In this document: positions 11,247 to 42,428 of the stretch, one piece after another
How the letters are laid out: each line of letters starts with the position of its first letter
Position numbering within the stretch: the first letter of the stretch is position 1
From: Herbiconiux sp. L3-i23
GTDB lineage: Bacteria; Actinomycetota; Actinomycetes; Actinomycetales; Microbacteriaceae
Length of the DNA stretch: 64,000 nt
Reading direction: 5' to 3'
NCBI RefSeq assembly: GCF_023734115.1
Contig: NZ_AP025737.1
Span: forward strand, 1,116,001 to 1,180,000
Made by a program: the position numbers and the translations under genes
Notes under the pieces: generated by a model
Databases searched by the model: none
What the model saw: only the letters and a program-made list of their open reading frames with translations
Told to the model about the DNA's origin: nothing

Positions 11247-13177
11247 TCACCCCCTCGGCCGAGACCCCGCAGGACGGCCCCTCGACCCGCACGATGACGG
11301 TCGCGCAGGCGCTGACGACGTTCCTTGCCAACCAGTGGACCGTCGACGGCGAGGTCCGCGAGCGCACCATCGCCGGCACCTTCGGCATCTTCGGGCACGG
11401 CAACGTCGCGGGCATCGGGCAGGCGCTGCTGCAGCTCGACACCGAGCAGCCGGGCCTCATGCCCTACCACCAGGCCCGCAACGAGCAGGCCATGGTGCAC
11501 CAGGCGGTCGGCTACGCGCGCATGCGGCGCCGCCGCGCGACCTACGCGGCCACCGCGTCCGTCGGCCCGGGAGCAGCGAACATGCTGACCGGTGCGGCGC
11601 TCGCCACCGCCAACCGACTCCCCGTGCTGCTGCTGCCCTCCGACACCTTCGCGACCCGCGTCGCCGACCCCGTGCTGCAGCAGCTCGAGCATCCGCACGA
11701 CCTTGGACTGCAGGTGACCGACGCGTTCCGTCCGGTCTCCCGCTTCTTCGACCGGGTACAGCGCCCCGAGCAGCTGTTCTCGATCGCGCTGGCCGCCATG
11801 CGCGTACTGACCGACCCCGCCGAGACGGGAGCGGTCACGATCGCGCTGCCCGAAGACGTGCAGGCCGAGACCATTGAGGTCCCGGTGGAGTTCCTGCAGC
11901 CTCGCGAGTGGCACGTGCGGCGCCCGCTTGCCGAGCCCGAGGAGCTCGCCCGCGCCGTCGAGGCGATCCGCGGTGCGACGGCACCGTTCATCGTCGCCGG
12001 GGGAGGAGTGCTCTACTCCGGCGCCGAAGACGCCTTGCGTGCCCTCGTCGAGGCGACCGGCATCCCCGTCGGTGCGACGCAGGCGGGCGTCGGGTCGCTC
12101 GCTTGGGACCACCCGCAGTACCTGGGCGGTGTGGGCGCGACCGGATCGACCGCCTCCAACCGGCTGGCGGCCGACGCCGACGTCGTGATCGGCATCGGCA
12201 CGCGCTACAGCGACTTCACCACGGCCAGCCGTTCCGCTTTCCAGCGGCCCGGGGTGCGCTTCGTCAACATCAACGTCGCCTCGTTCGACGCGTACAAGCA
12301 CGGCTCGCAGCTGCCCGTCATCGCCGACGCCCGCCGCGCGCTCGATGCGCTGGCGACGGAGCTCGCCGGCTGGCGGGTCGACGAGTCCTACGCCGACCGC
12401 GTCGCCGCCGAGAAGGCGGAGTGGGATGCCGTCGTCGACCGCGCCCTCGCCCCCTCGGGTGCGGAACTGCCCGGGCAGGCCGAGATCATCGGCGCGGTGC
12501 TCGCCGCCAGCGACCCGACCGACGTGCTCGTTCAGGCGGCCGGAGCGCTGCCCGGCGACCTGCACAAGCTGTGGCGCGTGCGCGACCCGCTCGGCTACCA
12601 CGTCGAATACGCGTTCTCGACGATGGGCTACGAGATCGCCGGGGGACTGGGTGTGCGCCGCGCCGCTCCCGACCGCGACGTGCTCGTCATGGTGGGCGAT
12701 GGCTCGTACCTGATGCTGCACACCGAACTCGTCACCGCGGTGGCGGAGGGTCTGAAGATCGTCGTCGTGCTCGTGCAGAACCACGGGTACGCGTCGATCG
12801 GTCACCTCTCGGAGACCGTCGGCTCCGACCGGTACGGCACCAAGTACCGCAGGCAGGACACGGCGGCGCCCGACTTCGCGGAGGAGCAGTACCTGCCCAT
12901 CGATCTCGCGGCGAACGCGCGCTCGTACGGCGTCGACGTGATCGAGGTGCGGCCCGGTCCCGACGTCGTGCGCGATCTCGAACGCGCGGTGCGCGACGCG
13001 AAGGCCTCGTCCCGCACCACGCTGGTGCACGTCGACGCCGACCCGCTGCTCTACGCGCCCGACGGCGAGGGCTGGTGGGACGTCCCGGTCGCCGAGCAGT
13101 CGACCTTGCCGAGCACCCAGCAGGCTCGCGCCGACTACGAACGCCAGCGCACCGCCCAGCGCCCCCTCCTCGGCTGA
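11243..13177 (+). CDS. iolD: 3D-(3,5/4)-trihydroxycyclohexane-1,2-dione acylhydrolase
   Basis: A ThDP-dependent ring-opening hydrolase of 644 residues in myo-inositol degradation. The N-terminal PYR domain has the activating glutamate region (YHQARNEQAMVHQAVGYARM), the central domain has PFIVAGGGVLYSGAEDAL, and the C-terminal PP domain has the ThDP-Mg motif beginning MVGDGSYLMLHTELVTA (GDG...). The ATG at 11243 overlaps the iolB stop. Last gene of the cluster; iolE and iolG are not in the window, so their steps must be encoded elsewhere or lie outside. Downstream is a repeat array rather than a simple terminator. Confidence 0.94.
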   Translation: MITPSAETPQDGPSTRTMTVAQALTTFLANQWTVDGEVRERTIAGTFGIFGHGNVAGIGQALLQLDTEQPGLMPYHQARNEQAMVHQAVGYARMRRRRATYAATASVGPGAANMLTGAALATANRLPVLLLPSDTFATRVADPVLQQLEHPHDLGLQVTDAFRPVSRFFDRVQRPEQLFSIALAAMRVLTDPAETGAVTIALPEDVQAETIEVPVEFLQPREWHVRRPLAEPEELARAVEAIRGATAPFIVAGGGVLYSGAEDALRALVEATGIPVGATQAGVGSLAWDHPQYLGGVGATGSTASNRLAADADVVIGIGTRYSDFTTASRSAFQRPGVRFVNINVASFDAYKHGSQLPVIADARRALDALATELAGWRVDESYADRVAAEKAEWDAVVDRALAPSGAELPGQAEIIGAVLAASDPTDVLVQAAGALPGDLHKLWRVRDPLGYHVEYAFSTMGYEIAGGLGVRRAAPDRDVLVMVGDGSYLMLHTELVTAVAEGLKIVVVLVQNHGYASIGHLSETVGSDRYGTKYRRQDTAAPDFAEEQYLPIDLAANARSYGVDVIEVRPGPDVVRDLERAVRDAKASSRTTLVHVDADPLLYAPDGEGWWDVPVAEQSTLPSTQQARADYERQRTAQRPLLG

Positions 13178-13214
13178 CAGCGCCCACCCGGGCCCGTCCG
13201 GGCGGGCCTGGCGG

Positions 13215-13623
13215 GTACACGGATCAGGAAATTGTGCACGGATCAGGAGAATGTGCACGGATCAGGACGCCGAGCGCGGTTCAGGACAACGAGCGCGGAT
13301 CAGGACCAATCGGCTCGATTCCCCGGCGCGTCGCGGGCTTGGTCCTGATCCGCGTACACAGCTGGGTGCGCCGACGCTCCGGTAGGTACACGGATCAGGG
13401 GTTTGTGCACGGATCAGGAGCAACCGGCGAAATGGTCCTGATCCGTGTGCGAGTTGCCCACTTTTGGGCCGGATCTCCTGATCGGTGCACACAACTTGGC
13501 GCGCTGACGTCCGGTGGGTCCACGGATCAGGAGTTCGTGCACAGATCAGGAGTATCCGGCGAAATGGTCCTGATCCGTGTGCGAGTTGCCCAGTTTTGGG
13601 TCGGATCTCCTGATCCGTGTATA
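13215..13623. repeat. Intergenic array of 14 CACGGATCAGGA-type motifs, both orientations
   Basis: Five direct copies with exact 19-bp spacing (12-bp cores starting 13218, 13237, 13256, 13275, 13294). Then inverted copies TCCTGATCCGTG at 13343, 13436, 13476, 13568 and 13608, and further direct copies at 13389/13408 and 13521/13540, again 19 bp apart. Two larger units repeat at a 132-bp offset (13389 to 13521, 13408 to 13540, 13436 to 13568, 13476 to 13608). Each unit is two direct motifs, a short gap, then two inverted motifs 40 bp apart, so it could fold into a long hairpin. No ORF of note. It fills the gap between convergent iolD and the GH2 gene. Confidence 0.9.
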
Positions 13624-13650
13624 CGGGCGGACACGCGCCCGACCAGAATG

Positions 13651-13696
13651 CCGAAGGGCCGGCGGCTCCACCGAGGTGGGACCGCCGGCCTTTCGG
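13651..13696. terminator. Bidirectional hairpin terminator between iolD side and GH2
   Basis: A 15-bp stem with one mismatch, CCGAAGGGCCGGCGG / CCGCCGGCCTTTCGG, around a 16-base loop, 10 bases past the stop of the minus-strand GH2 gene. It is symmetrical enough to act in both directions. Confidence 0.75.
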
Positions 13697-13705
13697 CGCA
13701 CGGAA

Positions 13706-15532
13706 CTACGGCTTGGAGCGCGACTCTGCGGCGATGATCGAGTGCAGCACCTCGATGGGCAGCTTCGGCACCCGGTTCTCGAAGGCGAGGCCGTTGGCCT
13801 CCTGCATGGTGTCGGTGATCTGCGTGTAGCAGAATCCGGCGAGCACGGTGCTGTCGAGCAGCGCGCCGAACAGGCCGCGCAGGTGCGACTCGAGCTCCTC
13901 GGTGGTGTTGCTCGTCGAGTAGCCCCACGCCGGCGCGGACTCGGTGGTCTCGAACTTGATCCCGCCGAATTCACTCACCATCACCGGGACCGTCGCGGTG
14001 TCGGCTTCGCCCTCGGCCATCATGATGCGGTGCGAGGGGCCGTAGCCCGCGAACAGCTTCTCGAGCGCAGCGTGGTCGATGTACCGTGCCGCGAAGGTCA
14101 CCGGGTCGCCGTCGTAGTCGTGCACCGTGAGGATGTCCGACTGCGTGTGCTCCCATCCGTCGTTCGACACCACCGGGCGGGTGGGGTCGAGCGCCCGGGT
14201 GAGGTCGGAGAGACCGCGGGAGAAGGCCCGTTGCGGCGCATCGGTGAGGAGGTCGCGCAGGCCCCAGCTCTCGTTGAACGGCACCCATGTCACGATCGAC
14301 GGGTGCGAGCGGTCGCGGCGCACCAGCTCGACCCATTCGCGGGTGAGGTCGGTGATCGCGTCGGTCGTGAACTCGTACGCCGCGGGCGCCTCGCCCCAGA
14401 GCATGAGCCCGAGCCGGTCGGCCCAGTACAGGAACCGCGGATCCTCGGCCTTCTGGTGGATGCGCGCCGCGTTGAATCCCATGTCCTTGATCAGCTGGAC
14501 CTCGGCGCGCAGGGCGTCGGCGCTCGGTGCCGCGAGGTGCGACTCGGGCCAGAAGCCCTGCTCGAGCACCGAGCGCACGAAGTACGGCCGGTCGTTGAGC
14601 AGGAAGCGACCGGCGGCGGTTCCGACGGTGCGCAGCCCCAGGTACGACTCGACGGAGTCGATGGCGGTCCCGTCGGTCACGGTGACGGTCGCGTCGATGA
14701 GCCGCGGGTTCTCGGGCGTCCAGGTGAGATTCTCGTAGTGCTGGCCATTGCGCTGATCGCGCAGAGGGATGTCGATGATCGGCGCGCCCGAGGTGAGCGA
14801 CTCGACCGATACCCGCGCCAGGGGAGCGCCGTCGTAACGCAGCTCGACGTCGACCCGCGCGCCGTTCTCGAGGGGCCGGTTGCAGAGCACTTCGAGGACG
14901 ACGCTGTCGGTGCCGCGGGTGGTGCGCCAGGTGAGCTCGGTGATGTGGGTCGTCGGCACCTGCTCGAGCCAGACCGGCTGCCAGATGCCGGTCGTGCGGA
15001 AGTACCAGATCGAGTGCGGCTCGGGCAGCCACTCCTGCTTGCCGCGCGGCTGGCCGACATCGAGGGGACGGTCGATGGCTCGCACCACGACGAGGTTCTC
15101 GCCTCCGTCGACGAGGTAGTCGGTGATGTCGGCCGAGAAGGGGGAGTGCCCGCCCGCGTGGGTGGCGACCTGGCTGCCGTTCAGCCAGACGGTGGCCGCG
15201 TAGTCGACGGCACCGAAATGCAGCAGGAGGCGGGTGTCCGCGTCGGCACGCTCGAGCTCGGTGTCGGTGAGGAGGCGCGAGTACCAGACGACCGGGTGGT
15301 AGGAGGTGTCCCCGATGCCCGACAGTGGCGATTCCGGGGGATACGGGACCAGGATCGTCTGCGCGAAGTCGCCGGTGCGGAACCAGCCCTCGGCGGCGCC
15401 GATCTCGTCGTCGTCGTAGGCGAAGCGCCATTCGCCGTCGAGGCTGTGCCAGTTCGGTCGGCGCAGCTGCGGGCGGGGGTACGAGCCGATGAGATCGGCT
15501 TCGGGCGAGGGAGTCGGTTCCATGCGGAACAC
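13706..15532 (-). CDS. Glycoside hydrolase family 2 protein (beta-glycosidase)
   Basis: A cytosolic GH2 enzyme of ~608 residues (start at 15532, or at the MEPTPSPE Met at 15523). It has the sugar-binding jelly-roll (LHFGAVDYAATVWLNGSQVATHAGGHSPF), the immunoglobulin-like domain, and a TIM barrel with acid/base E421 in PFNESWG and nucleophile E521 in VSEFGG. LIKDMGFNAARIHQKAEDPRFLYWADRLGLMLWGE is the GH2 barrel entry. Substrate could be beta-galactoside, beta-glucuronide or beta-mannoside; sequence alone does not settle it. It lies directly downstream of a LacI regulator with an operator-like site in the 68-bp gap, indicating substrate-induced expression. Confidence 0.88.
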   Translation of the reverse strand: MFRMEPTPSPEADLIGSYPRPQLRRPNWHSLDGEWRFAYDDDEIGAAEGWFRTGDFAQTILVPYPPESPLSGIGDTSYHPVVWYSRLLTDTELERADADTRLLLHFGAVDYAATVWLNGSQVATHAGGHSPFSADITDYLVDGGENLVVVRAIDRPLDVGQPRGKQEWLPEPHSIWYFRTTGIWQPVWLEQVPTTHITELTWRTTRGTDSVVLEVLCNRPLENGARVDVELRYDGAPLARVSVESLTSGAPIIDIPLRDQRNGQHYENLTWTPENPRLIDATVTVTDGTAIDSVESYLGLRTVGTAAGRFLLNDRPYFVRSVLEQGFWPESHLAAPSADALRAEVQLIKDMGFNAARIHQKAEDPRFLYWADRLGLMLWGEAPAAYEFTTDAITDLTREWVELVRRDRSHPSIVTWVPFNESWGLRDLLTDAPQRAFSRGLSDLTRALDPTRPVVSNDGWEHTQSDILTVHDYDGDPVTFAARYIDHAALEKLFAGYGPSHRIMMAEGEADTATVPVMVSEFGGIKFETTESAPAWGYSTSNTTEELESHLRGLFGALLDSTVLAGFCYTQITDTMQEANGLAFENRVPKLPIEVLHSIIAAESRSKP

Positions 15533-31348: not shown

Positions 31349-32049
<701 letters not shown>

Positions 32050-32995
32050 TTCTTCATCTACAGGAACCAAGGACTTCTAAGGTCCGACACAGGGTGGCAA
32101 GGTGCTGAGCTGGCCTGTTGTCCTCTCCAGGCCTGTTTGAACCTGCAAGGTCCAGATCCATCGGCATGTTGATGCCTGCCCAAGTGAGATTCTGAGGTGA
32201 GAATCTGCTATATTTTTTTTTTGTTCTGTGGCCTGGCGGCCGAGCCGCATGTGCTGTCCTGGCAACAAGCCTGCCTGTGCGCATGTTCATGGGAGGCGTC
32301 TAACTGCACGCCCTAATGCGACAGGGCTCTGCTGGAGTGTGCCCACTCACAGTTTTTTTACTAGCTCGAGCCATGTAGCGAGGAGGGATCACAGCAGAGA
32401 GCAGATCCCATGCTTCATGGCTGCGGCTGTTTATTGTCTCCTCGTGCTGCGGTTTTTTTTTTTTTGTAGCAAACGTTCCAGTGGGGAAGGCTCCCAGCTT
32501 GTCTACTTCTGTTCCTATAGTCGCCTTCAGCTCTCTTCACACGAGCCTCAACGCCTGCTGGCACCAGTGCCACCGTAGTCCCGCTAAAGTTCTCCACGAG
32601 CCACCGTGGATCAGCCGGCTGCTTCCTAGTTCTGCCTCGATGGCAGCCATGTTTTTTTCCCGCCGTCTCAGCAGAATATAGCGGTGCCATGTCTCCAGCG
32701 CGACCGTGGCCGGAGCGCACGTCACGCGCCTCCTCGCCGGAGTTAGGGGAGTGTAGCCTACAGCCAGCAGCCCAAAGTCCATCCCAGAGATGCCTCATAT
32801 AGAGTGTTGCATCGGAGATATCTGTCCAAGTTTTGCTGCGCGCTTGAGGGCGGCGCGGCAGGTCGAGATACACGGACCCTGGAGTCCGGTGCCAACCCGG
32901 TCGACAGAAGGTCCAAACCATCCCGGCCTCCTGGAAGCGTCGCGCCCGCGACCGCCAGAGCGTGCTTTAATGCTCCCCAGGCGCCGCCGCGTGGA
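32050..32995. other. Eukaryote-like foreign stretch, probably a chimeric join
   Basis: This ~0.95-kb segment is unlike the rest of the window. It has T-runs of 11 (~32212-32222) and about 14 (~32453-32466), a further T7 near 32350 and 32650, mixed GC, no codon-periodicity, and stops in all frames beyond short ORFs. On the minus strand these become A-runs of the poly-A type. The bacterial genes on both sides are cut at its edges: the recombinase loses its N-terminus and the hypothetical protein at 33.7 kb loses its C-terminus. It reads to me like plant or other eukaryotic intergenic DNA. Boundaries are estimated to about 30 bases. No gene is called in it. Confidence 0.6.
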
Positions 32996-33706
32996 GTGCT
33001 TGGCGAGGTCGCCGACCTTGGACTTCTTCTCCATCTTCTTTGCGAGCGCGTCGAGCTGGAGCAGCGCGTAGGCCTGTGTGGTCGCGATGGTCTGGGCGGC
33101 GCCGTGCAAGTTTGACCAGGTCACCTCGGAGACGCGTCCGACGTGCTCACGCTTGAACATGGCGTCGTCGATTACCATGCCGACGCCGATCATCTTCGCG
33201 ATCTCTGCGTTCTTCTGTGCGAGGAGGATGTCGTCGACCTTCTCATCGATGACTTTGAGGTACTCGGTGATCTCCTCCATGGTCTGCTGCATGGCCAGCT
33301 GCGCCATGATCCCCGCAGCACCCGCGAGCATCGCTGGGTTCGTCAGCATTGAGCCCACCGAGCCGGGCTTCACGAACTCCAGGATCTTCGTGACCTTGCC
33401 CTTGCTCGTGGTGGCGATGGCGCGGCTGACGCCGTCCGAGGACCCCTTCATCGCCTTCCCGAGCTTGAGCGCTTTGGCGGACTCCTCGGTGAGCTTCACC
33501 CAGCGGCCCGAGTTTGCTGCGATCTGAGAGCCCGCTTGCGCCACACCGGAGCCCGCGTTCAGGGCTGCGCCGAACGACGAGCGGAGGGCAATCTCCTTCG
33601 AGGTGACTCCGGCGGTAGAGAGGAAGAGCTCAACCTCGCTGGGGTGGCCGAAGATGGCGACGCCTTCACCGTCGCTGACCAGCTCGATCTCGCTGCCCAT
33701 GTTCAC
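32795..33706 (-). pseudogene. Hypothetical protein truncated at its C-terminus
   Basis: The first ~235 codons look like a real actinobacterial protein: MGSEIELVSDGEGVAIFGHP, a Ser/Ala-rich region, a short hydrophobic patch (SMLTNPAMLAGAAGIMAQLAM), then a helical or coiled stretch (EEITEYLKVIDEKVDDILLAQ, IGVGMVIDDAMFKREHVGRVSEVTW, LLQLDALAKKMEKKSKVGDLAK). After about base 33000 the frame passes into Arg/Gly-rich text within the eukaryote-like stretch and stops at 32795. I recall longer homologues continuing with more helix, so the end is missing. Start is the ATG at 33700 or GTG at 33706 behind AAAGAGGTG. Function unknown. Confidence 0.65.
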
Positions 33707-34126: not shown

Positions 34127-35209
34127 ATGACTGAGGACTTCAAAGACGTCGCCCGCCGCATCGAAGCGAACCCGCTCGGGCGGCTCATGTACGGCCAGCG
34201 CGAGCTGTTCCACTCCAATCTCATCGGTTGGTTCTTCGACCAGCTTCCGGATGCGGCCGACGCGACGTTCCGGCCGCTTGCCTCGCCCGGCACGGACTCT
34301 GGTCGGTTCGTAGAGCGCGAGCGAGGTCACATGGATCTCGTGTTCCACTGGCCAGACCGTGCCCCGCTCGTCATCGAGAACAAGGTCTTCTCCCTGCCCC
34401 ACCGAGACCAGCTCCATGAGTACCACGCAGCCGCATCGAAGTGGCCGCACACGCCGGCCCTTGTGCTGCTCTCGGTAAGCGCGCCGGACTTCGACCTGGG
34501 GGAGTGGCGCTACCTGAGCTACGCCGAGTTCGCCGCTCGCATCCTCGACGCGCTTCCTGCCGACTCGTCCTACGAGGTTGAGACGATGCGCCGCTACGCC
34601 GCGCTCGTTGCCGACTTGTATCAGCTCGTCTCGGCTGTCGACGTGCAGTCCGACGACGAGGCGGTCTGGCTGCCGGGATCGATATTGTCGGCGATCTCCA
34701 GCACGCAGATGCGCGCGGCGCTCCATAAGGCGCGGGCACAGCGCGTCGCGCGGGTGCTCAACGAGTTCCTTCCTGGCTTGGAGCAGCCCGCTGCGGGCGG
34801 CATGAGCAACGCGACACCGCTGGTCGAGTCCTTCGAGTACGTCTACACCCGCCGCATGCATCTGCACATTGGTTGGCAGCTCCAAGGCAGCCAGTTCCGG
34901 CGCGCCGCCGTTTACCACGACCCATCCATCTCCGGGCGGAGCCAAGAGTCTCGCAGACTCCGCGAAGACGTCAGCCGCGAACACCCCGAGTTCTACTCCT
35001 TCCCTGCCCCACTGCCGCAAGCGATTGGCGGGCGCAAGGAGTTCAACCACTTCGCCCCCTCCTTCGTCTACAAATACGTCAAGACGCCGAACCTCACTAT
35101 CTCCGAGCTGAAGGCAGCCGCCGCCGAGGTGCACGCGGAGATCCAGCAATTGCGCGCCGAAGGGGCGAACGAGAGTCGCCCCGCCGAGGCAGTGCGCAAG
35201 GCTCCGTAG
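34127..35209 (+). CDS. PD-(D/E)XK nuclease superfamily protein
   Basis: A 360-residue protein resembling the PDDEXK_4 group. The N-terminal nuclease core has an early helix (QRELFHSNLIGWFFDQLP), then D70 in HMDLVFHW and E84-x-K86 in LVIENKV, followed by DQLHEYHAAASKWPHTPALVLLS. The C-terminal half (HIGWQLQGSQFRRAAVYHD, FNHFAPSFVYKYVK) is a less-characterised domain. DNA cleavage in defence or mobile elements is the usual role of such proteins. It lies in the island, 28 bases before a second nuclease-like gene. ATG start behind the small winged-helix gene. Confidence 0.85.
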   Translation: MTEDFKDVARRIEANPLGRLMYGQRELFHSNLIGWFFDQLPDAADATFRPLASPGTDSGRFVERERGHMDLVFHWPDRAPLVIENKVFSLPHRDQLHEYHAAASKWPHTPALVLLSVSAPDFDLGEWRYLSYAEFAARILDALPADSSYEVETMRRYAALVADLYQLVSAVDVQSDDEAVWLPGSILSAISSTQMRAALHKARAQRVARVLNEFLPGLEQPAAGGMSNATPLVESFEYVYTRRMHLHIGWQLQGSQFRRAAVYHDPSISGRSQESRRLREDVSREHPEFYSFPAPLPQAIGGRKEFNHFAPSFVYKYVKTPNLTISELKAAAAEVHAEIQQLRAEGANESRPAEAVRKAP

Positions 35210-35237: not shown

Positions 35238-35834
35238 GTGTCGTCGGTGCCGCTGGCTACCCTCGGAAGCGTGGAAGCCTTTGAGCAGTTCGTCGCCCTC
35301 GCACTGGAAGCCGAAGGGCTGGTCGTCTCGAGCGCGCTCAAGTTCCCCGTCAAGCGCCGCACCCGCAAAACCGCCTACGAGGAGTGGCAGACGCACGGCT
35401 TTGAGGTGGATCTCGTCGCCGCTCGTGCCGACAAGCTTGTGCTCGCGACGGTGAAGTCCTTCTTCGGCTCGCGTGGGGTCGTGGCAGCGCACGTGCGCGG
35501 CGAGAGCGAGAACCGCACTTGGAACGCCGCCTACGCGCTCCTCAACGACGAGCAGATCCGTTCCACTGTCGTCGCGGCGGCCGCGGAGCGGTTTGGATTC
35601 AACGTTGACCAGGTCGAGCTGCGACTCTACGTCGGCAAGTTCGCCGGCGGCGGGAGTGAGGCTGCCGTGCGCGACTGGTGTGCCCAGCAGGTCGTCGGTG
35701 CGGGGCCGATCGCGGTGGTTGGTGCTGCCGAGGTGGTGAAGACCGTTCGCGAGGTCGCGGGCTCGAAGCAGTACCGCGACAACGCCGTGCTGGCCACGAT
35801 GAAGGTGCTGGACGCCGTGGGGGCGCTCGCTTAA
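35238..35834 (+). CDS. Restriction-endonuclease-like hypothetical protein
   Basis: A 198-residue protein with a GTG start. The N-terminus (FEQFVALALEAEGLVVSSALKFPVKRR) and GFEVDLVAARADKLVLATVKSFFGSRGV have the layout of a PD-(D/E)XK fold: helix with Glu, D58, then T71-V72-K73 where active enzymes have E-x-K. The replaced Glu could mean loss of activity or a migrated catalytic residue. The C-terminus (VRDWCAQQVVGAGPIAVVGAAEVVKTVREVA) is helical. It overlaps the helicase remnant that follows. Role unknown; island context suggests defence or mobile-element maintenance. Confidence 0.7.
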   Translation: MSSVPLATLGSVEAFEQFVALALEAEGLVVSSALKFPVKRRTRKTAYEEWQTHGFEVDLVAARADKLVLATVKSFFGSRGVVAAHVRGESENRTWNAAYALLNDEQIRSTVVAAAAERFGFNVDQVELRLYVGKFAGGGSEAAVRDWCAQQVVGAGPIAVVGAAEVVKTVREVAGSKQYRDNAVLATMKVLDAVGALA

Positions 35835-36918: not shown

Positions 36919-37049
36919 CGGAGCGGTGCGCGCACCGGTGGCTCTCTCAGGTCGGCTTTACGGCTGACGGATCGACGGTGCTGTTTGCCGCTGAAACTCG
37001 AGCGATGGTACGGTCATCGGTTGCTCAAATTCAGAAAGGAGGCAGAGTG

Positions 37050-38318
37050 ATGTCGAGTCCCAGGCGCGAGCACGATGCGATCGCCAAGCACGCTGTGGAT
37101 CAACTGCACGACGCGGGCTATAAGTCGGTGGAGTCGGAACTACGCATTGCCGGTACCAACTCCCGTCCGGATATCGTCGCTTGGGCGGCTAACGAGGACG
37201 GGAAGATCGTTCCCTGGGTCGTAGTCGAGATCAAGTCCGGCGAAAGCACCAGCAAGCCTGAAGTCGTACTTCCTCAGGTCGCCCAATACGCCAACACTCT
37301 GGGCACCGTCGACAACTACGTAGTGATCGGCACGAACTGGTTCAAGGCAGATCGATCGTTCCGACGCCTCGAGCCCGTCATCGGGCCGACACCTCCGCCG
37401 TTTGGATCTCAGGGATACGTTGACGATCCCACGGTTGTCGCGCCGCTTCTAACGAACTGGCTGGCGAGCCTCACCCATAAGGTGGCGTCGCGGGAGCTTC
37501 GAGTTGCTCTTCCGGAACTGGAAGGGTTCTCGGTGAGCGACGCGGCTTACTGGCGCGCGGCAATGAATGCCATCGCCGACACGACCTCGCGGTCGGGGTT
37601 CGCCCAGCATTCCAGCAGCCCGTTCATTGCGGCGTTGGTTGCTCGTCTAGTCGGAACTCGGCTTGAAGGGCTGGTGCTTGATCCCTTCTCTGGCGTCGGC
37701 TCTTTCCTGTGGGCGGTCGCCGATCGCGTGAAGGAGGCGATAGAGCGAGGCGAACGACCGGCGGAGGTCTCGCTCTATGGCGTTGAGTTGGAGGAGCGAA
37801 CGGCCGCGATCGCGCGGGCGATCGGCGAGGTGGCGGGCGTGCCAACGGAGATCATCGCAGGGGACGCCTTCCATGTTGATCTGCCGAAGGCGAGCGCAAT
37901 CGTCACCGCCCCACCACTTGGTATGCGGCTACCGGAGCCCTATGAGTTGCTCAATGGGCGGGTCACCACCGACATGGACCTGGCAGCAGTCGACCTGTCG
38001 CTCCGGCATCTCGAAGAGGGCGGGCGCGCGGTAATCCTGCTACCGCGAACATTTGTGAATCGCGCCAGCGGGGAGGCGTACCGCGAGTATCTCGCCAACC
38101 AGTTCCGGGTCGGCGCGCTCATCGGCACGCCGCGCGGCGCAGTACCGGGCACAAGCTTCGCTGGTGTTCTGCTCGTGATTAATAAGGGTGACGCCCCCGG
38201 CGAAACGTTCGTCGGCCAGGCTGCAGATGACGACTGGCAGGTGCAGCTCGGTGTGGATGGGCCCCTGACGAAGGCGGCAGTCGACTACCTCGACGGGTTC
38301 AGCGAGATGTGGTCATGA
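37050..38318 (+). CDS. PD-(D/E)XK nuclease / N6-DNA-methyltransferase-like fusion
   Basis: A 422-residue protein, start ATG 37050 (GTG 37047 alternative) behind a strong AAGGAGG. Residues ~1-100 resemble the HsdR N-terminal nuclease domain: D41 in RPDIVAW and E60-x-K62 in VVVEIKSG. Residues ~185-400 resemble the HsdM N6-adenine methyltransferase fold: SAM motif I LDPFSGVGSFL (~210-220), LDLSLRHLEEGGRAVILLP-like strand, and GTPRGAVPGTSFAGVLLVINKG. The catalytic motif IV, normally NPPY/F, is APPLG (~287-291), which would be unusual for an active enzyme. Domain order recalls BcgI-type (IIB/IIG) nuclease-methylases, but this is shorter. ATGA overlap with the specificity gene. Confidence 0.82.
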   Translation: MSSPRREHDAIAKHAVDQLHDAGYKSVESELRIAGTNSRPDIVAWAANEDGKIVPWVVVEIKSGESTSKPEVVLPQVAQYANTLGTVDNYVVIGTNWFKADRSFRRLEPVIGPTPPPFGSQGYVDDPTVVAPLLTNWLASLTHKVASRELRVALPELEGFSVSDAAYWRAAMNAIADTTSRSGFAQHSSSPFIAALVARLVGTRLEGLVLDPFSGVGSFLWAVADRVKEAIERGERPAEVSLYGVELEERTAAIARAIGEVAGVPTEIIAGDAFHVDLPKASAIVTAPPLGMRLPEPYELLNGRVTTDMDLAAVDLSLRHLEEGGRAVILLPRTFVNRASGEAYREYLANQFRVGALIGTPRGAVPGTSFAGVLLVINKGDAPGETFVGQAADDDWQVQLGVDGPLTKAAVDYLDGFSEMWS

Positions 38319-39484
38319 GCACGTGGGCGCTGACAGATCTCCGAAGCAAGCGGACATGGGACATCGGAAGTCTCGCGATTGACGCATTCTCGTGGCCCGT
38401 CGACGAGCCACTTCGTCGGCTCGACGAGGTCGCATACATACTCTCGGCTGTCGAAGAAGCCGAACCAGATTTTCCGATCATAACGCCGCAGAGCATCGAT
38501 ACGGTCACTGGCGTCCTTCGTCGTCGCCGCCGCGGTTACATTGGGGCCGCTTTCCGGGTAGGTGGGTTCGGTCGGGCTTTGCAGCCCGGGGACCTGCTGG
38601 TTCCGCCGAACGATGTGCCAGTGCTGTTCGTGAATGAGACACTCGCCGGTTCGCTCGCATCCGCGCAGTTTCTCGCCGTTCGGCCGGATCCGTCGGTGAT
38701 CGATGCCCAGTGGCTATGGGGATTGCTGAACAGCCGCTCGGGGCGGTCGTTTCGGCGCCTCGTGACTGCGGATTCCTCTGGGAAGCGGGACGCCACTGCG
38801 GCGCTACTGCGCATGAAGATCCCGGTTCCGGGCCTCACTGAGCAACGATCCGTGGCATACCAGTTGGCAGCGATCGAACAGAGCCTCCGAGGCCAGGAGC
38901 AGGAAGGGCCGACAACGTGGTGGCGAGTTTCTGACCTGCGTGGCCAGGAATGGCGATTCGCGTTGGCATCGGCGAATCCGTCACTCATGCAGGAGGGCGA
39001 CCCCCTCGGTGACTTCTGCGAGATCGTTCGGGGGCGCCAATCGCGTTCGCGAGACGAACCGCTGAACACCTCCGTCGGGGTGCTTCCGCTCGCCACGGGC
39101 ATGTATCTCGCGGGGCGCCGGGATGAGGTTGCTCCGGTGTTGCCGAACTCGCTCATCGCGGAGCCGGGCGACGTACTCGTCGCGGTCATTGGCGAGCGCC
39201 CTCTGGCGAGAGTCGTCGTCGATCCGATGCTTGTCGGCGATACGGTCTATCGGATCCGTCCGAACGAGCGCGCGTTCGCTGCTGCAATCGCGAGCTTCCT
39301 CAACAGCGCGATCGGTCTCGCGCGGTGGCGCTTCCTCGCGCTCGATGGAACGGTGCCGCAGATGCGGCTCAGTGACCTACGGCAATTTCCGGTTCCTGTG
39401 GGCGCACTTGCCGCGCAAACGGCGGACATATTCCCCGTGCGACCGCTCGACGTGCAACTGGACAGCATCCTGTGGCCGAACTGA
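38315..39484 (+). CDS. Type I-like specificity (HsdS) subunit
   Basis: A 389-residue protein. ATG 38315 overlaps the preceding stop. It shows two half-site target-recognition-type units: N-terminal RLDEVAYILSAVEE...GDLLVPPNDVPVLFVNETLAG...QWLWGLLNSRSGRSFRRLVTADSSG...LRMKIPVPGLTEQRSVAYQLAAIEQSL, and C-terminal LGDFCEIVRGRQSRSR...PGDVLVAVIGERPLARVV...AAIASFLNSAIGLARWRFLALDGTVPQMRLSDLRQFPVPV. The repeated pattern of recognition domain then IPVP/FPVPV helix is the HsdS signature. It should give sequence recognition to the fused nuclease-methylase. GTG of the next gene overlaps its 3' end by 13 bases. Confidence 0.85.
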   Translation: MSTWALTDLRSKRTWDIGSLAIDAFSWPVDEPLRRLDEVAYILSAVEEAEPDFPIITPQSIDTVTGVLRRRRRGYIGAAFRVGGFGRALQPGDLLVPPNDVPVLFVNETLAGSLASAQFLAVRPDPSVIDAQWLWGLLNSRSGRSFRRLVTADSSGKRDATAALLRMKIPVPGLTEQRSVAYQLAAIEQSLRGQEQEGPTTWWRVSDLRGQEWRFALASANPSLMQEGDPLGDFCEIVRGRQSRSRDEPLNTSVGVLPLATGMYLAGRRDEVAPVLPNSLIAEPGDVLVAVIGERPLARVVVDPMLVGDTVYRIRPNERAFAAAIASFLNSAIGLARWRFLALDGTVPQMRLSDLRQFPVPVGALAAQTADIFPVRPLDVQLDSILWPN

Positions 39485-40422
39485 GCTGTCGTCTTTCGCC
39501 GCTGGTTTACAGCGTCCTGTATCGCCGTCTTGCTGCTGATACTGCCGCGCACGTCATCCTCGAGCCTCGACTGCAAGAGATTGAACTCGATCTTGAGTGG
39601 CTTGATTCGGCGGCGGAGGCTTATGGGCGGAAGTGGACAGCCAATGCCGAGATGCTCAGCTCTGGCACTCCAGCGGATACGATCGAGCGCCTCGAAGCCT
39701 CGCATGCGCTTCTCGCCAGTTGGATTCTGACAGCGCTGCGAGGTCGCGGCAGCTCCGATGATTTCTCGGCGGATCTAAGAACGGAGATCCTTGGCCGTCT
39801 TACTGACGACGGGCAGGATGCCAGCGTGTTCGGCGTACGCGAGGAGTTCTCCCCGGTCATCGTCGGCTGGGTGCTCGGGATGGTGGTGCAGAACAACATC
39901 GATCTGAACCTGCCTGCGATCCCGGCGACACCTATCAAGAACAGGCACATCGCGGCGGCGTACGAGGGTCTGGTGCAGCACGTTGCAGCGCTCAGGCTGG
40001 AGGCAGAGCCTTGGCCGGACCTGCTCGGGACGTCCACACTGGTGCGAGGCGTGGGTTTGGCGGAGGCGCTGAGGCCGGAGGCCGGCTCCGCGCGTGCTGC
40101 GGTCCAGGCGTTACTGCGCGAGTCTGCAAGGTATGTTCCCTCGCCGGTTCAGACGACACTCGCGAACCACTGGGACCGCGGAGACATCATCGGCATGCGA
40201 AACGCAGTTGTTCACATCCTGCCAACCTCTGGCGGAGGCCTGCCGTTTCTCGACGTTATGAATCCCGCCGACAACTGGGGCAAGATCAAACCGACTGTCC
40301 AGGGCATCACGCAGTTCGTCTTCCAGGAGGTCGCTCGTGAGCTGGCCGAGGAAGCGAGCGGAGTCCACAGCGGTATCTGGGACCAGCAGCTGAAGTGGGA
40401 CGTGGAGGTGTGGGGGTTGTGA
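39472..40422 (+). CDS. HEPN-motif protein, third gene of the restriction-like cassette
   Basis: A 316-residue, mainly helical protein with a GTG start overlapping the HsdS-like gene by 13 bases. Near the C-terminus WDRGDIIGMRNAVVHILP contains R243-N-A-V-V-H248, the R-x4-H pattern of HEPN ribonucleases, in a helix context typical for them. The N-terminal half (LQEIELDLEWLDSAAEAYGRKW, IERLEASHALLASWILTALRG) has long amphipathic helices. HEPN proteins are often RNases in toxin-antitoxin, abortive-infection and type I/III defence loci. No full family match is claimed; the HEPN call rests on this motif and its context. Confidence 0.65.
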   Translation: MAELSCRLSPLVYSVLYRRLAADTAAHVILEPRLQEIELDLEWLDSAAEAYGRKWTANAEMLSSGTPADTIERLEASHALLASWILTALRGRGSSDDFSADLRTEILGRLTDDGQDASVFGVREEFSPVIVGWVLGMVVQNNIDLNLPAIPATPIKNRHIAAAYEGLVQHVAALRLEAEPWPDLLGTSTLVRGVGLAEALRPEAGSARAAVQALLRESARYVPSPVQTTLANHWDRGDIIGMRNAVVHILPTSGGGLPFLDVMNPADNWGKIKPTVQGITQFVFQEVARELAEEASGVHSGIWDQQLKWDVEVWGL

Positions 40423-41032: not shown

Positions 41033-41953
41033 TTATGCCGCTTCCGCGAGGGTAGCGGACGTGGTCTCCGCGTAGGCGGTCTCGTAGTTGTTCGGGGTGA
41101 TCTGGCCGATCGCGGAGTGGCGCCTGCGGGTGTTGTAGCGGTTCGCCCATCGGAACACGGCCCGGTAGGCGGTGGCCTGGTCCGGGAACGCCGCCTGGCC
41201 TTCGAGGAGCTCCCGCTTGAGTGTGGCGTTGAAGCTCTCCGCGAGTGAGTTGTCGGCGCTCGTGCCCACCGCACCCATGGACTGGACGATGTTGAGCTGC
41301 TCGCAGAGGGCTGCGTAGGCCTTCGAGGCGTAGACGCTGCCGTGGTCGCTGTGGAAGATCGCGCCGGCCAGCGTCCCGCGGTCACGGGCCGCAGCGCGCA
41401 GGGCGTCTTCGACGAGCCCTACGCGCATGTGGTCGGCGACCTGCCAACCCGCGAGCTTCCGTGACCCGAGGTCGATGCAGGTCGCGAGATACAGGTTCGA
41501 CCCGTCCGCGATCGGGAGGTAGGTGATATCGCCCACGTATCGGCGGTTCGGCTCACCAATGGAGAAGTCCCGCTCGATCAGGTCGGGGAAGCGGCGTCCG
41601 GACTGGTCCGGGATCGTGGTCCTCACCCGTCGACGCAGCCGGATCCCCGCGAGCTGGTGTTCCCGCATCACCCGGGCGACCCGCTTGTGATTCACCCGCC
41701 CGGCCGCCGCGGCGCCGTCGTTGAGGTCGGCGGTGATCCGCGGCGCCCCATAGGCGCGATCGCCACCCTGCGCGGGGTCCTGCAGCACACGGATTCGCGC
41801 CGCCAGCGCGGCGTCTGCGGCGGCCCTCGCGGCCCGTCCCGGGGCCACCGCCAGCCAGGCGTAGAACGACGACCTCGCGATCTGAATGACCTCACACAAC
41901 CGCTTCACGCCGTAGGCGTCCTTGTGATCCTCAACGAACTGGAAGCGGTTCAC
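41033..41953 (-). CDS. IS3-family transposase OrfB (DDE integrase)
   Basis: Catalytic half of the IS3 transposase, 306 residues from the GTG at 41953. HTH_21-type N-terminus (YGVKRLCEVIQIARSSFYAWLA), YGAPRITADLND and the rve integrase core. The DDE triad is in YVGDITYLPIADG (D), FHSDHGSVYASKAY (D) and NSLAESFNATLKRELL (E). The C-terminal YNTRRRHSAIGQITPNNYE is the usual IS3 end. The GTG overlaps the OrfA stop (GTGA). Fusion by -1 frameshifting is the normal mode in this family and is possible in the shared 41.95-42.0 kb region; reinitiation is an alternative. Confidence 0.93.
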   Translation of the reverse strand: MNRFQFVEDHKDAYGVKRLCEVIQIARSSFYAWLAVAPGRAARAAADAALAARIRVLQDPAQGGDRAYGAPRITADLNDGAAAAGRVNHKRVARVMREHQLAGIRLRRRVRTTIPDQSGRRFPDLIERDFSIGEPNRRYVGDITYLPIADGSNLYLATCIDLGSRKLAGWQVADHMRVGLVEDALRAAARDRGTLAGAIFHSDHGSVYASKAYAALCEQLNIVQSMGAVGTSADNSLAESFNATLKRELLEGQAAFPDQATAYRAVFRWANRYNTRRRHSAIGQITPNNYETAYAETTSATLAEAA

Positions 41954-42279
41954 CAGTTCGTCTCCCCGGCGAAATACTTCGCCGCCTGACGAAGGATGTC
42001 CCGCTCCGTCTGAAGCTTCAGCTTCTCCGCTTCCAGCCTCGCGTTCTCGGCCTCCAGCCGGAGGACCTTCGCCGCCTGTGACTCCGCCCGCGCCGGCGCG
42101 GGCGTCGACGCTGTGCCGGTGGTCGTGATCCCCGAGCCGTGCTTCTCGACCCACTCCCGCAGCGCACCGCGGGAGATCCCCAGATCCGCCGCGATGCCCT
42201 TCAACGTCGCACCCGGCGTGGACGCGAACAAGTCCACCGCCCGCTGCCGGAACTCGTCCGTGTAGTTCTTCCTTGCCAT
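41950..42279 (-). CDS. IS3-family transposase OrfA (HTH)
   Basis: DNA-binding half of the IS3 transposase, 109 residues. HTH_Tnp_1 domain (YTDEFRQRAVDLFASTPGATLKGIAADLGISRGALREWVEKHG) at ~6-50, an Ala/Thr/Pro spacer, then the leucine-zipper coiled coil (AKVLRLEAENARLEAEKLKLQTERDILRQAAKYFAGE) that mediates dimerisation and meets OrfB. It starts about 60 bases inside the right terminal repeat. Intact. Confidence 0.92.
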   Translation of the reverse strand: MARKNYTDEFRQRAVDLFASTPGATLKGIAADLGISRGALREWVEKHGSGITTTGTASTPAPARAESQAAKVLRLEAENARLEAEKLKLQTERDILRQAAKYFAGETNW

Positions 42280-42428
42280 CCCTTGGATTCTCGCTTCCCC
42301 AGCAACGTGCTGGAATCAGCGTGTCCAAGATCAGGGGTCAAGCGCCGATGGCGGCGGAAATCCACTGAATCTCGACAGCCGTAACAGAGGTCGTCGATTT
42401 ATTGGAACAGAGGTAGACGATGTCGACT

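Follow-up and report, generated by a model that had tools for sequence, protein, structure and literature searches.

Three closely packed genes on the + strand of the 64-kb window (the whole stretch of DNA that was analysed), at 37050-40422, raise the question of whether they constitute an ordinary restriction-modification system followed by an unrelated third gene, or a distinct defence module in which a DNA-recognition complex is coupled to an RNase. Gene 1 (37050-38318, 422 aa) combines a PD-(D/E)XK-like domain with an HsdM-like N6-methyltransferase fold whose catalytic motif is degenerate, gene 2 (38315-39484, 389 aa) encodes an HsdS-like specificity protein with two recognition domains (TRDs), and gene 3 (39472-40422, 316 aa, GTG start) encodes a mostly helical protein, probably a HEPN RNase. 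A ribosome-binding site, AAAGGAGG (37035-37042, +), was read in the sequence just 5' of the gene 1 ATG. The gene coordinates agree with overlaps of 4 bases between genes 1 and 2 and 13 bases between genes 2 and 3, and the residues singled out in an initial sequence-only reading of the locus, namely D41, E60 and K62 of gene 1 and R243-N-A-V-V-H248 of gene 3, were correctly placed. Elsewhere in the window, a tRNA-Leu call within 35238-35834 was dropped because Rfam does not see it, and no 14-base stretch taken from the tRNA-Pro together with the 40 bases that follow has a second copy in the 64 kb.

The sequence-only reading had taken the genes for a single unit and had suggested seeking the same neighbourhood in other genomes. 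We recovered 11 intact triplets, all from actinobacteria and all with the same gene order; as the whole triplet recurs in 10 genomes other than that of the window, it represents more than a chance arrangement. Genes 2 and 3 overlap by 10 or 13 bases in every case, and genes 1 and 2 by 4 bases in seven, the remaining four having gaps of 2-5 bases. Furthermore, the pairwise identities of the three genes are correlated with each other (Mantel r 0.88-0.97 over 11 loci, 0.76-0.92 over 9 loci). Far from being absent from homologous loci, which had been named as evidence against the proposal, gene 3 follows in 11/11 loci where genes 1 and 2 are intact. Co-inheritance of the three genes is thus borne out, and the triplet is a real, conserved, co-inherited module. 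This count excludes gene 3 fragments in two genomes (L031 in G239 and L049 in G1213) and a weak match interrupted by a stop (L003 in G292); L030 and L035 are one Oerskovia locus, counted once, and gene 1 of L036 was read from 8983, one codon past its ATG, which leaves the counts unaffected. Within the order, a search with gene 1 retrieved its own genome, G653 and 24 genomes in which the match was weak and partial (E 7.5e-13 to 9.9e-4); the latter were taken as ordinary methylases, with the loci of G461 and G758 inspected.

The methyltransferase-like domain of gene 1 (37554-38219, +; approximately residues 169-390) matches N6_Mtase (E 4.8e-13), and a 9-member profile of gene 1 matches the type I M protein StySJI 2okc (E 2.4e-17), in keeping with the HsdM-like fold originally proposed. 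The accompanying label of a nuclease-methylase is not supported, since all 11 homologues have another residue at the catalytic position of motif IV: against an expected [DN]PP[YF], the motif reads APP in 10 and GPP in one, with A287-P-P-L (37908-37919, +) replacing N-P-P-F/Y in the window protein. D211, P212, F213, G215 and G217, an acidic residue at 246 and D272, which we take to be S-adenosylmethionine-binding positions, are kept in 11/11. The methylase is probably dead, since motif IV has been replaced throughout even though these presumed cofactor-binding positions persist, and the complex of genes 1 and 2 probably still binds S-adenosylmethionine. Among the neighbouring hsdM genes, NPP[FY] is kept in six of the seven read; the seventh (L048), which has none, was apparently cut at the fetch edge.

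The N-terminal region of gene 1 (37050-37439, +) had been interpreted as an HsdR-N-like PD-(D/E)XK domain. The motif on which this was based stands, D41, E60 and K62 being invariant in 11/11, whereas the matches to HSDR_N_2 are weak and confined to 3 of the 11 members (best E 5.3e-4), with the window protein below the curated cut-off. A PDB search with this domain gave no nuclease match, the matches being BurrH, flavodoxin and other chance-like ones.

That gene 2 is HsdS-like, with two recognition halves, is supported by the matches of its 9-member profile to HsdS 5ybb and 3okg (E 1.4e-11 and 1.6e-11; profile positions 87-332). The protein also matches PADLOC Specificity_I (E 7.9e-9), and Pfam Methylase_S only at E 0.23. 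Its recognition regions, whose limits are approximate, are TRD1 (38405-38689, +; residues 31-125) and TRD2 (38915-39289, +; residues 201-325); their mean pairwise identities over 55 pairs are 49.1% and 47.2%, as against 39.2% and 46.5% for the spacer regions, so that the TRDs are no less conserved than the spacers. The gene 2 proteins of L046 and L047 are 91% identical, with 87-97% in each 30-column block, and the first six 30-column blocks of the neighbouring hsdS of these loci are 10-23% identical, the first half having been swapped. As judged from these alignments, the recognition domains of gene 2 are fixed and not diversifying, unlike those of the adjoining true HsdS. Taken together, the lost motif IV and the non-diversifying TRDs make a type I or IIB system that methylates in the ordinary way unlikely.

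Gene 3 had been proposed to be a HEPN RNase on account of its Rx4H motif, R243-N-A-V-V-H248 (40198-40215, +). The motif itself is upheld, with R243 and H248 invariant in 11/11 and the polar residue after R being N in 10 and Q in one. AlphaFold gave a poor model of the window protein itself (5 sequences, pLDDT 51.6) and a mostly helical one, with a pLDDT of 85.1, of its homologue from L046 (12 sequences). In the L046 model R235 ends the third core helix and the catalytic H240 lies just past the helix end, within a stretch of pLDDT <50; an insert helix sits between helices 2 and 3, and helix 2 bears E192 (E198 in the window protein), an acidic residue kept in 10/11. In PMC3710099, the HEPN domain is described as having its motif at the end of helix 3, an insert separating helices 2 and 3, and an acidic residue in helix 2. 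The predicted Rx4H placement and helix topology agree with that description, suggesting a HEPN-like C-terminal domain at 39943-40353 (+; approximately residues 158-294). A Foldseek search of PDB and BFVD with the L046 model yielded nothing at E <= 0.001, and no HEPN is named among the best 50 rows of each; sequence searches (Pfam, NCBIfam, PADLOC and hmmsearch of PDB) gave no credible match and no HEPN, and hhalign against single HEPN-type proteins gave no HEPN match in two comparisons. The conserved motif and the modelled topology favour the proposal and the fold and profile searches do not, and we consider gene 3 a probable HEPN RNase.

We tentatively favour, with doubt still slightly outweighing confidence, the view of the triplet as an accessory module for abortive infection that guards restriction, and whose dead M-S complex restrains the probable HEPN RNase and releases it on infection. 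We infer complex formation, RNase activity, trigger and outcome alike. Genes 1 and 2 would form a type I/BcgI-like M-S complex that does not methylate and, with its fixed recognition domains, serves as a sensor, holding gene 3 in check in the resting cell. Infection would alter what the complex binds, through a phage-encoded DNA mimic directed against restriction, some fixed feature of foreign DNA or the loss of S-adenosylmethionine, and the freed RNase, perhaps joined by the PD-(D/E)XK domain as a DNA cutter, would bring growth to a stop. The triplet may serve as an alarm in reserve, for when phages put ordinary restriction systems out of action. A narrower version, in which the M-S complex is a decoy that senses phage anti-restriction (Ocr-like mimics or S-adenosylmethionine depletion), frees the HEPN RNase and guards any host type I system, appears rather doubtful to us.

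Such guardian logic is known from PrrC and PARIS, and the triplet is best read as resembling PrrC/EcoprrI in logic. PrrC is a HEPN anticodon nuclease tied to the type IC system EcoprrI, and associations with restriction-modification genes extend to at least 16 HEPN clades (PMC3710099, PMC3874165); the earlier statement, that a coupled HEPN partner is not part of any known type I system, is therefore not supported. The likeness lies in the pairing, at the level of the genes, of a HEPN-type RNase with a type I M-S-R system that it backs up as a further defence (PMC3710099, PMC3874165). PrrC differs in carrying an ABC-ATPase, whereas the Pfam matches of the 11 gene 3 members include no ATPase family, only three weak unrelated ones in one member each, and in being held by an active restriction enzyme, whereas the proposed partner of gene 3 is a separate dead M-S complex. 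PARIS (AriA-AriB), as described in PMC12707154, is a guardian: it detects Ocr, an anti-restriction protein, and in response frees an effector that cuts RNA, a logic like that proposed here; by description only, it consists of other proteins, whereas the proposed sensor of the triplet is a restriction-enzyme look-alike. The same review, from 2025, counts PrrC and PARIS among the guardians of restriction; cofactor degradation figures in it as one of the signals for defence systems that experiments have yet to identify. A pseudo-methylase that keeps its cofactor site without its catalytic motif and is coupled to a probable RNase makes this idea directly testable.

The alternative that survives best, though we consider it unlikely, is a modification-independent nuclease, in which the complex of genes 1 and 2 recognises a fixed foreign feature or modified base and the PD-(D/E)XK domain cuts, gene 3 being structural or regulatory and no RNase. 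The invariant D41/E60/K62, the lost motif IV, the fixed TRDs and the failure of Foldseek to recognise the fold of gene 3 are all compatible with it; yet it leaves unexplained the invariance of Rx4H, the polar residue after R and the position at the end of helix 3, and the profile support for the nuclease domain itself is weak.

The surroundings of the triplet suggest another explanation, that it is a regulator or partner of an adjoining type I enzyme, with the dead M-S complex swapping subunits or tuning restriction and gene 3 acting as an adaptor. A type I hsdR lies close by in 8/11 loci, a linkage that also speaks for the guardian reading; it ends 2 bases 5' of gene 1 in L046 and L047, and there is no HsdR translocase subunit inside the triplet itself. 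An HSDR_N match, favourable to such a partnership and to the guardian reading alike, occurs in all 11 triplet genomes (the window's own and the other 10) and is absent from both genomes with gene 3 fragments only; such matches are common, being found in 9 of 14 control genomes, which were not matched to the triplet genomes. The hsdR and gene 1 identities are weakly correlated over 7 loci (r 0.44, permutation 0.07), but the correlation is lost only after L047 is dropped (r -0.25, 6 loci). Moreover, the neighbours come from several type I subfamilies, and no type I system adjoins the triplet at three of the 11 loci (the window, L036 and L040), which counts against the guardian reading as well. 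We regard partnership with an adjoining type I enzyme as improbable. Protection of the triplet's sites by a neighbouring type I methylase was likewise rejected as a general rule, because L046 and L047 have nearly the same gene 2 but differ by a swap in the first half of the hsdS beside it, and because of the three loci without such a neighbour. The triplets are known so far solely from genomes with an HSDR_N match.

Gene 3 could also be a helical antitoxin or chaperone of the complex of genes 1 and 2, with Rx4H present by chance: random placement of its invariant R and H yields Rx4H in 2.5% of trials, which is non-negligible, and no search run gave a HEPN match. However, four features fit HEPN, namely the polar residue that follows R, a motif sited where helix 3 ends, the insert helix and an acidic side chain in helix 2, and we hold this explanation to be highly improbable. 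The least probable explanation is that genes 1 and 2 are an ordinary restriction-modification system, of BcgI-like type IIB or of type I, to which gene 3 is unrelated. This would suit the domain content of genes 1 and 2 but conflicts with the loss of motif IV in every triplet, as opposed to its retention in most neighbouring hsdM, and with the fact that gene 3 follows wherever genes 1 and 2 are intact, the overlaps between the genes being conserved.

The favoured guardian module also bears likenesses to other known systems. BcgI-like type IIB systems have a nuclease-methylase fusion and a separate specificity subunit (PMC3874165), a domain plan that genes 1 and 2 may share; the triplet differs in the loss of the catalytic methylase motif and the presence of a third gene, each in 11/11. 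With the HEPN families of restriction-modification operons (PMC3710099), gene 3 shares Rx4H and the genomic association, and differs from them in having no credible Pfam, NCBIfam or PADLOC match. The best PADLOC profile for gene 1 is mad2 (E 7.6e-18), and gene 2 matches mad5 (E 3.1e-8); nevertheless, the triplet is set apart from MADS by NCBIfam scores of 18.7 bits for MAD2 against a cut-off of 720 and 31.2 bits for MAD5 against 400, and no other mad profile is among the matches listed for the six window proteins scanned. Literature searches limited to open-licence PubMed Central, together with passages of PMC12839542, PMC3710099, PMC13092281, PMC3874165 and PMC12707154, gave no description of the triplet. 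While the coupling of a HEPN RNase to type I systems is already known, a sensor with a dead methylase and fixed recognition appears to be new, and genes annotated as 'N-6 DNA methylase' and 'specificity subunit' may in such cases be sensors rather than modifiers.

As for mobile elements, tblastn found no relatives of gene 3 in plasmids and phages, and in plasmids gene 1 has four partial matches, with annotations as DNA methylases, which cover 46-56% of the query at 22-29% identity. Three of four scans of viral contigs gave no relative, and the fourth gave one partial methylase-like match.

The three genes of the triplet, gene 1 (37050-38318), gene 2 (38315-39484) and gene 3 (39472-40422), lie on the forward strand, with a good ribosome-binding site upstream of gene 1. 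The sequence-only reading had described them as a cassette of a nuclease-methylase, a specificity subunit and a HEPN RNase; the window coordinates bear out the overlaps of 4 and 13 bases that it reported, and the motif residues it named are found in the sequence where it placed them. The same three-gene neighbourhood, proposed there as a check, is conserved elsewhere, amounting to 11 distinct intact triplets with that of the window included.

Among 396 genomes of the order, gene 1 has one full-length relative beyond its own genome, in Oerskovia (genome G653), and weak partial matches in 24 others. Its alignment against 84,980 species genomes gave four relatives (Microbacterium sp. Root166, Oerskovia again, Paractinoplanes and Mycobacterium sp.), in a scan that distant members would escape because it used only two short peptide patterns. 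In the class, gene 3 queries matched 2 of 394 genomes (its own and G1017); in G1017's family, 5 of 197 (G1276, G1273, G1234, G1017 itself and a fragment in G1213); in G1276's genus, 6 of 147 (adding G1429 and G1451); in its own family, 3 of 398 (its own genome and two partial matches); in G653's family, 1 of 150 (G653 itself); and in the phylum, 1 of 296 (its own). Gene 3 was present at all four distinct loci reached via gene 1, and genes 1 and 2 at all six full-length gene 3 loci reached via gene 3. It is a rare module, found to date only in actinobacteria; coverage beyond them consisted of the scan with two patterns together with plasmids, phages and viral contigs. Pairwise identities of the three proteins correlate with each other across the 11 loci (Mantel r 0.88-0.97) and across nine, with one of each near pair dropped (0.76-0.92); on these comparisons the genes appear to be co-inherited.

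A nine-member profile of gene 1 finds methylase subunits of type I systems (2okc, E 2.4e-17), and all nine members match N6_Mtase. The D and G residues of motif I, the acidic residue after strand 2 and the motif III Asp, which bind the cofactor in this family, are kept in all 11 proteins. In motif IV the residue preceding PP is Ala in ten and Gly in one (A287-P-P-L in the window); NPP[FY] is present in six of the seven neighbouring hsdM genes read, the seventh, at L048 (L-numbers denote loci), has no such motif and is apparently cut at the edge of the fetched sequence. Loss of the motif IV Asn abolishes methyl transfer in amino-methyltransferases. Marking of self DNA would be beyond the complex of the gene 1 and gene 2 products, and cutting at ordinary sites would be dangerous. 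In the N-terminal domain D41, E60 and K62 are kept in 11 of 11 proteins; HSDR_N_2 is weakly matched in three (best E 5.3e-4), the single weak Pfam matches are partly nuclease-type (Endonuc_Holl, Mrr_cat, Uma2) and partly unrelated, and a PDB search with the domain returned no nuclease. Judged from sequence, this domain is a likely, not a proven, nuclease.

The nine-member gene 2 profile matches HsdS structures that have two TRDs, 5ybb and 3okg, at E about 1.5e-11; Pfam Methylase_S reaches only E 0.23 against the window protein alone. Over 55 pairs, and with TRD limits that are approximate, the TRD regions (49.1 and 47.2% identity) are no less conserved than the spacers (39.2 and 46.5%). In the type I systems neighbouring L046, L047 and L057, hsdR is 85-96% and hsdS 26-53% identical, and gene 2, unlike this hsdS, is as conserved as gene 1 in these pairs; when L046 is compared with L047, identity is 10-23% in the first six 30-column blocks of hsdS and 87-97% in the blocks of gene 2. 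Such fixed TRDs argue against a diversifying DNA-sequence specificity.

Searches with the gene 3 sequence gave no credible family or structure; the Pfam hits listed for its members are three, weak and unrelated (best E 0.01). Neither R243 nor H248 varies among the 11 proteins, with N at position 244 in ten and Q in one. Rx4H alone is modest evidence, since placing the invariant residues (four R, two H) at random yields it in 2.5% of trials, and a spacing of 4-6 in 7.4%. An AlphaFold model built with 12 sequences for the homologue at L046, which shares 41% identity with the window protein, reached pLDDT 85.1 and pTM 0.86; it is mostly helical (152-169, 177-194, 201-213, 218-238, 260-284), with three short strands at 123-145. 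In it R235 lies near the C-terminal limit of the third core helix and H240 just beyond that helix, within the stretches below pLDDT 50 (236-243 and 247-253); an insert helix precedes the third core helix, and E192 lies in the second. HEPN domains are described in the same terms, namely a motif that closes the third core helix, an insert helix and an acidic residue in helix 2 (PMC3710099). Foldseek searches of PDB and BFVD with this model gave nothing at E <= 0.001, and no HEPN is named among the best 50 from each; hhalign of gene 3, in weak single-sequence tests with an ApeA-type protein and with an HsdR that bears DUF4145, gave no match. We consider it quite probable that gene 3 encodes a HEPN RNase.

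At eight of the 11 loci no more than 4.7 kb separate gene 1 from the nearer end of a Pfam-confirmed type I hsdR (L034, on the opposite strand, L035 of Oerskovia, L037, L046, L047, L048, L056 and L057), the accompanying hsdM and hsdS being assigned by position, clustering and motif rather than Pfam. At L046 and L047 the hsdR stop lies 2 bases upstream of gene 1. These hsdR carry EcoEI_R_C (L035), EcoR124_C (L037) or T1RH-like_C (L046, L047, L056, L057), and those of L034 and L048 none of the three above cut-off. No type I system adjoins the triplet in the window, L036 or L040; HSDR_N occurs elsewhere in these three genomes, and the window's own genome has a Pfam-confirmed hsdR-hsdS-hsdM set about 250 kb away (L068:2195-8181, reverse strand). 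The HsdR of this set, like that of L035, bears an N-terminal DUF4145 domain. HSDR_N was found in all 11 triplet genomes (the own genome and 10 of 12 others searched), a sign of a type I link that is suggestive, not conclusive, because 9 of 14 well-known control genomes have it too. The hsdR and gene 1 identities correlate weakly over seven loci (r 0.44, permutation 0.07) and are uncorrelated over six, without the near-duplicate L047 (r -0.25). We read the triplet as a separate module that joins various type I systems. HSDR_N was not found in G239 and G1213, the two searched genomes with gene 3 fragments only (L031:5863-6411 and L049:9274-9492, genes 1 and 2 not being nearby), a pattern that would be consistent with the module decaying where no type I system is present.

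A sensor role for the complex of the first two proteins seems to us the best fit. This restriction-enzyme-like complex would restrain gene 3, and infection would alter its ligand, be it a DNA mimic, a DNA feature or a cofactor level, so releasing gene 3. Guardian precedents are described in PMC12707154, namely PrrC with EcoprrI and PARIS with Ocr, and supply the logic proposed here. Coupling of HEPN RNases to restriction systems is itself already known (PMC3710099); novelty would be limited to the triplet with a methylase-dead M-S complex, of which no description was found in searches of the open-licence literature.

Upstream of the triplet, a tRNA-Pro (31349-31425, forward) precedes the defence genes and may mark the edge of an island, although a search for repeats of it elsewhere in the window found none. 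A tRNA-Leu called by ARAGORN at 35625-35718 lies inside a forward ORF (35238-35834), lacks Rfam support and is probably false. The product of 34127-35209 (forward), a PDDEXK_4 protein matching PADLOC PDC-S26, is a further defence candidate. A gene of unknown function at 32795-33706 (reverse) shares 42% identity across 237 columns with a gene of 400 aa that adjoins the triplet in L040 (4835-6037); departing from this relative after about residue 236, the window copy may be truncated. In L040 an ApeA_NTD1 protein upstream of the triplet (11669-13195, reverse) has a C-terminal RNDLAH motif, so that a second HEPN candidate adjoins gene 1 there. An IS3-like transposase (rve, HTH_21; 41033-42328, reverse) lies directly downstream of the window triplet, and in L056 a SIR2-like and HerA-like (DUF87) pair (12013-15247, reverse) stands between hsdR and the triplet.
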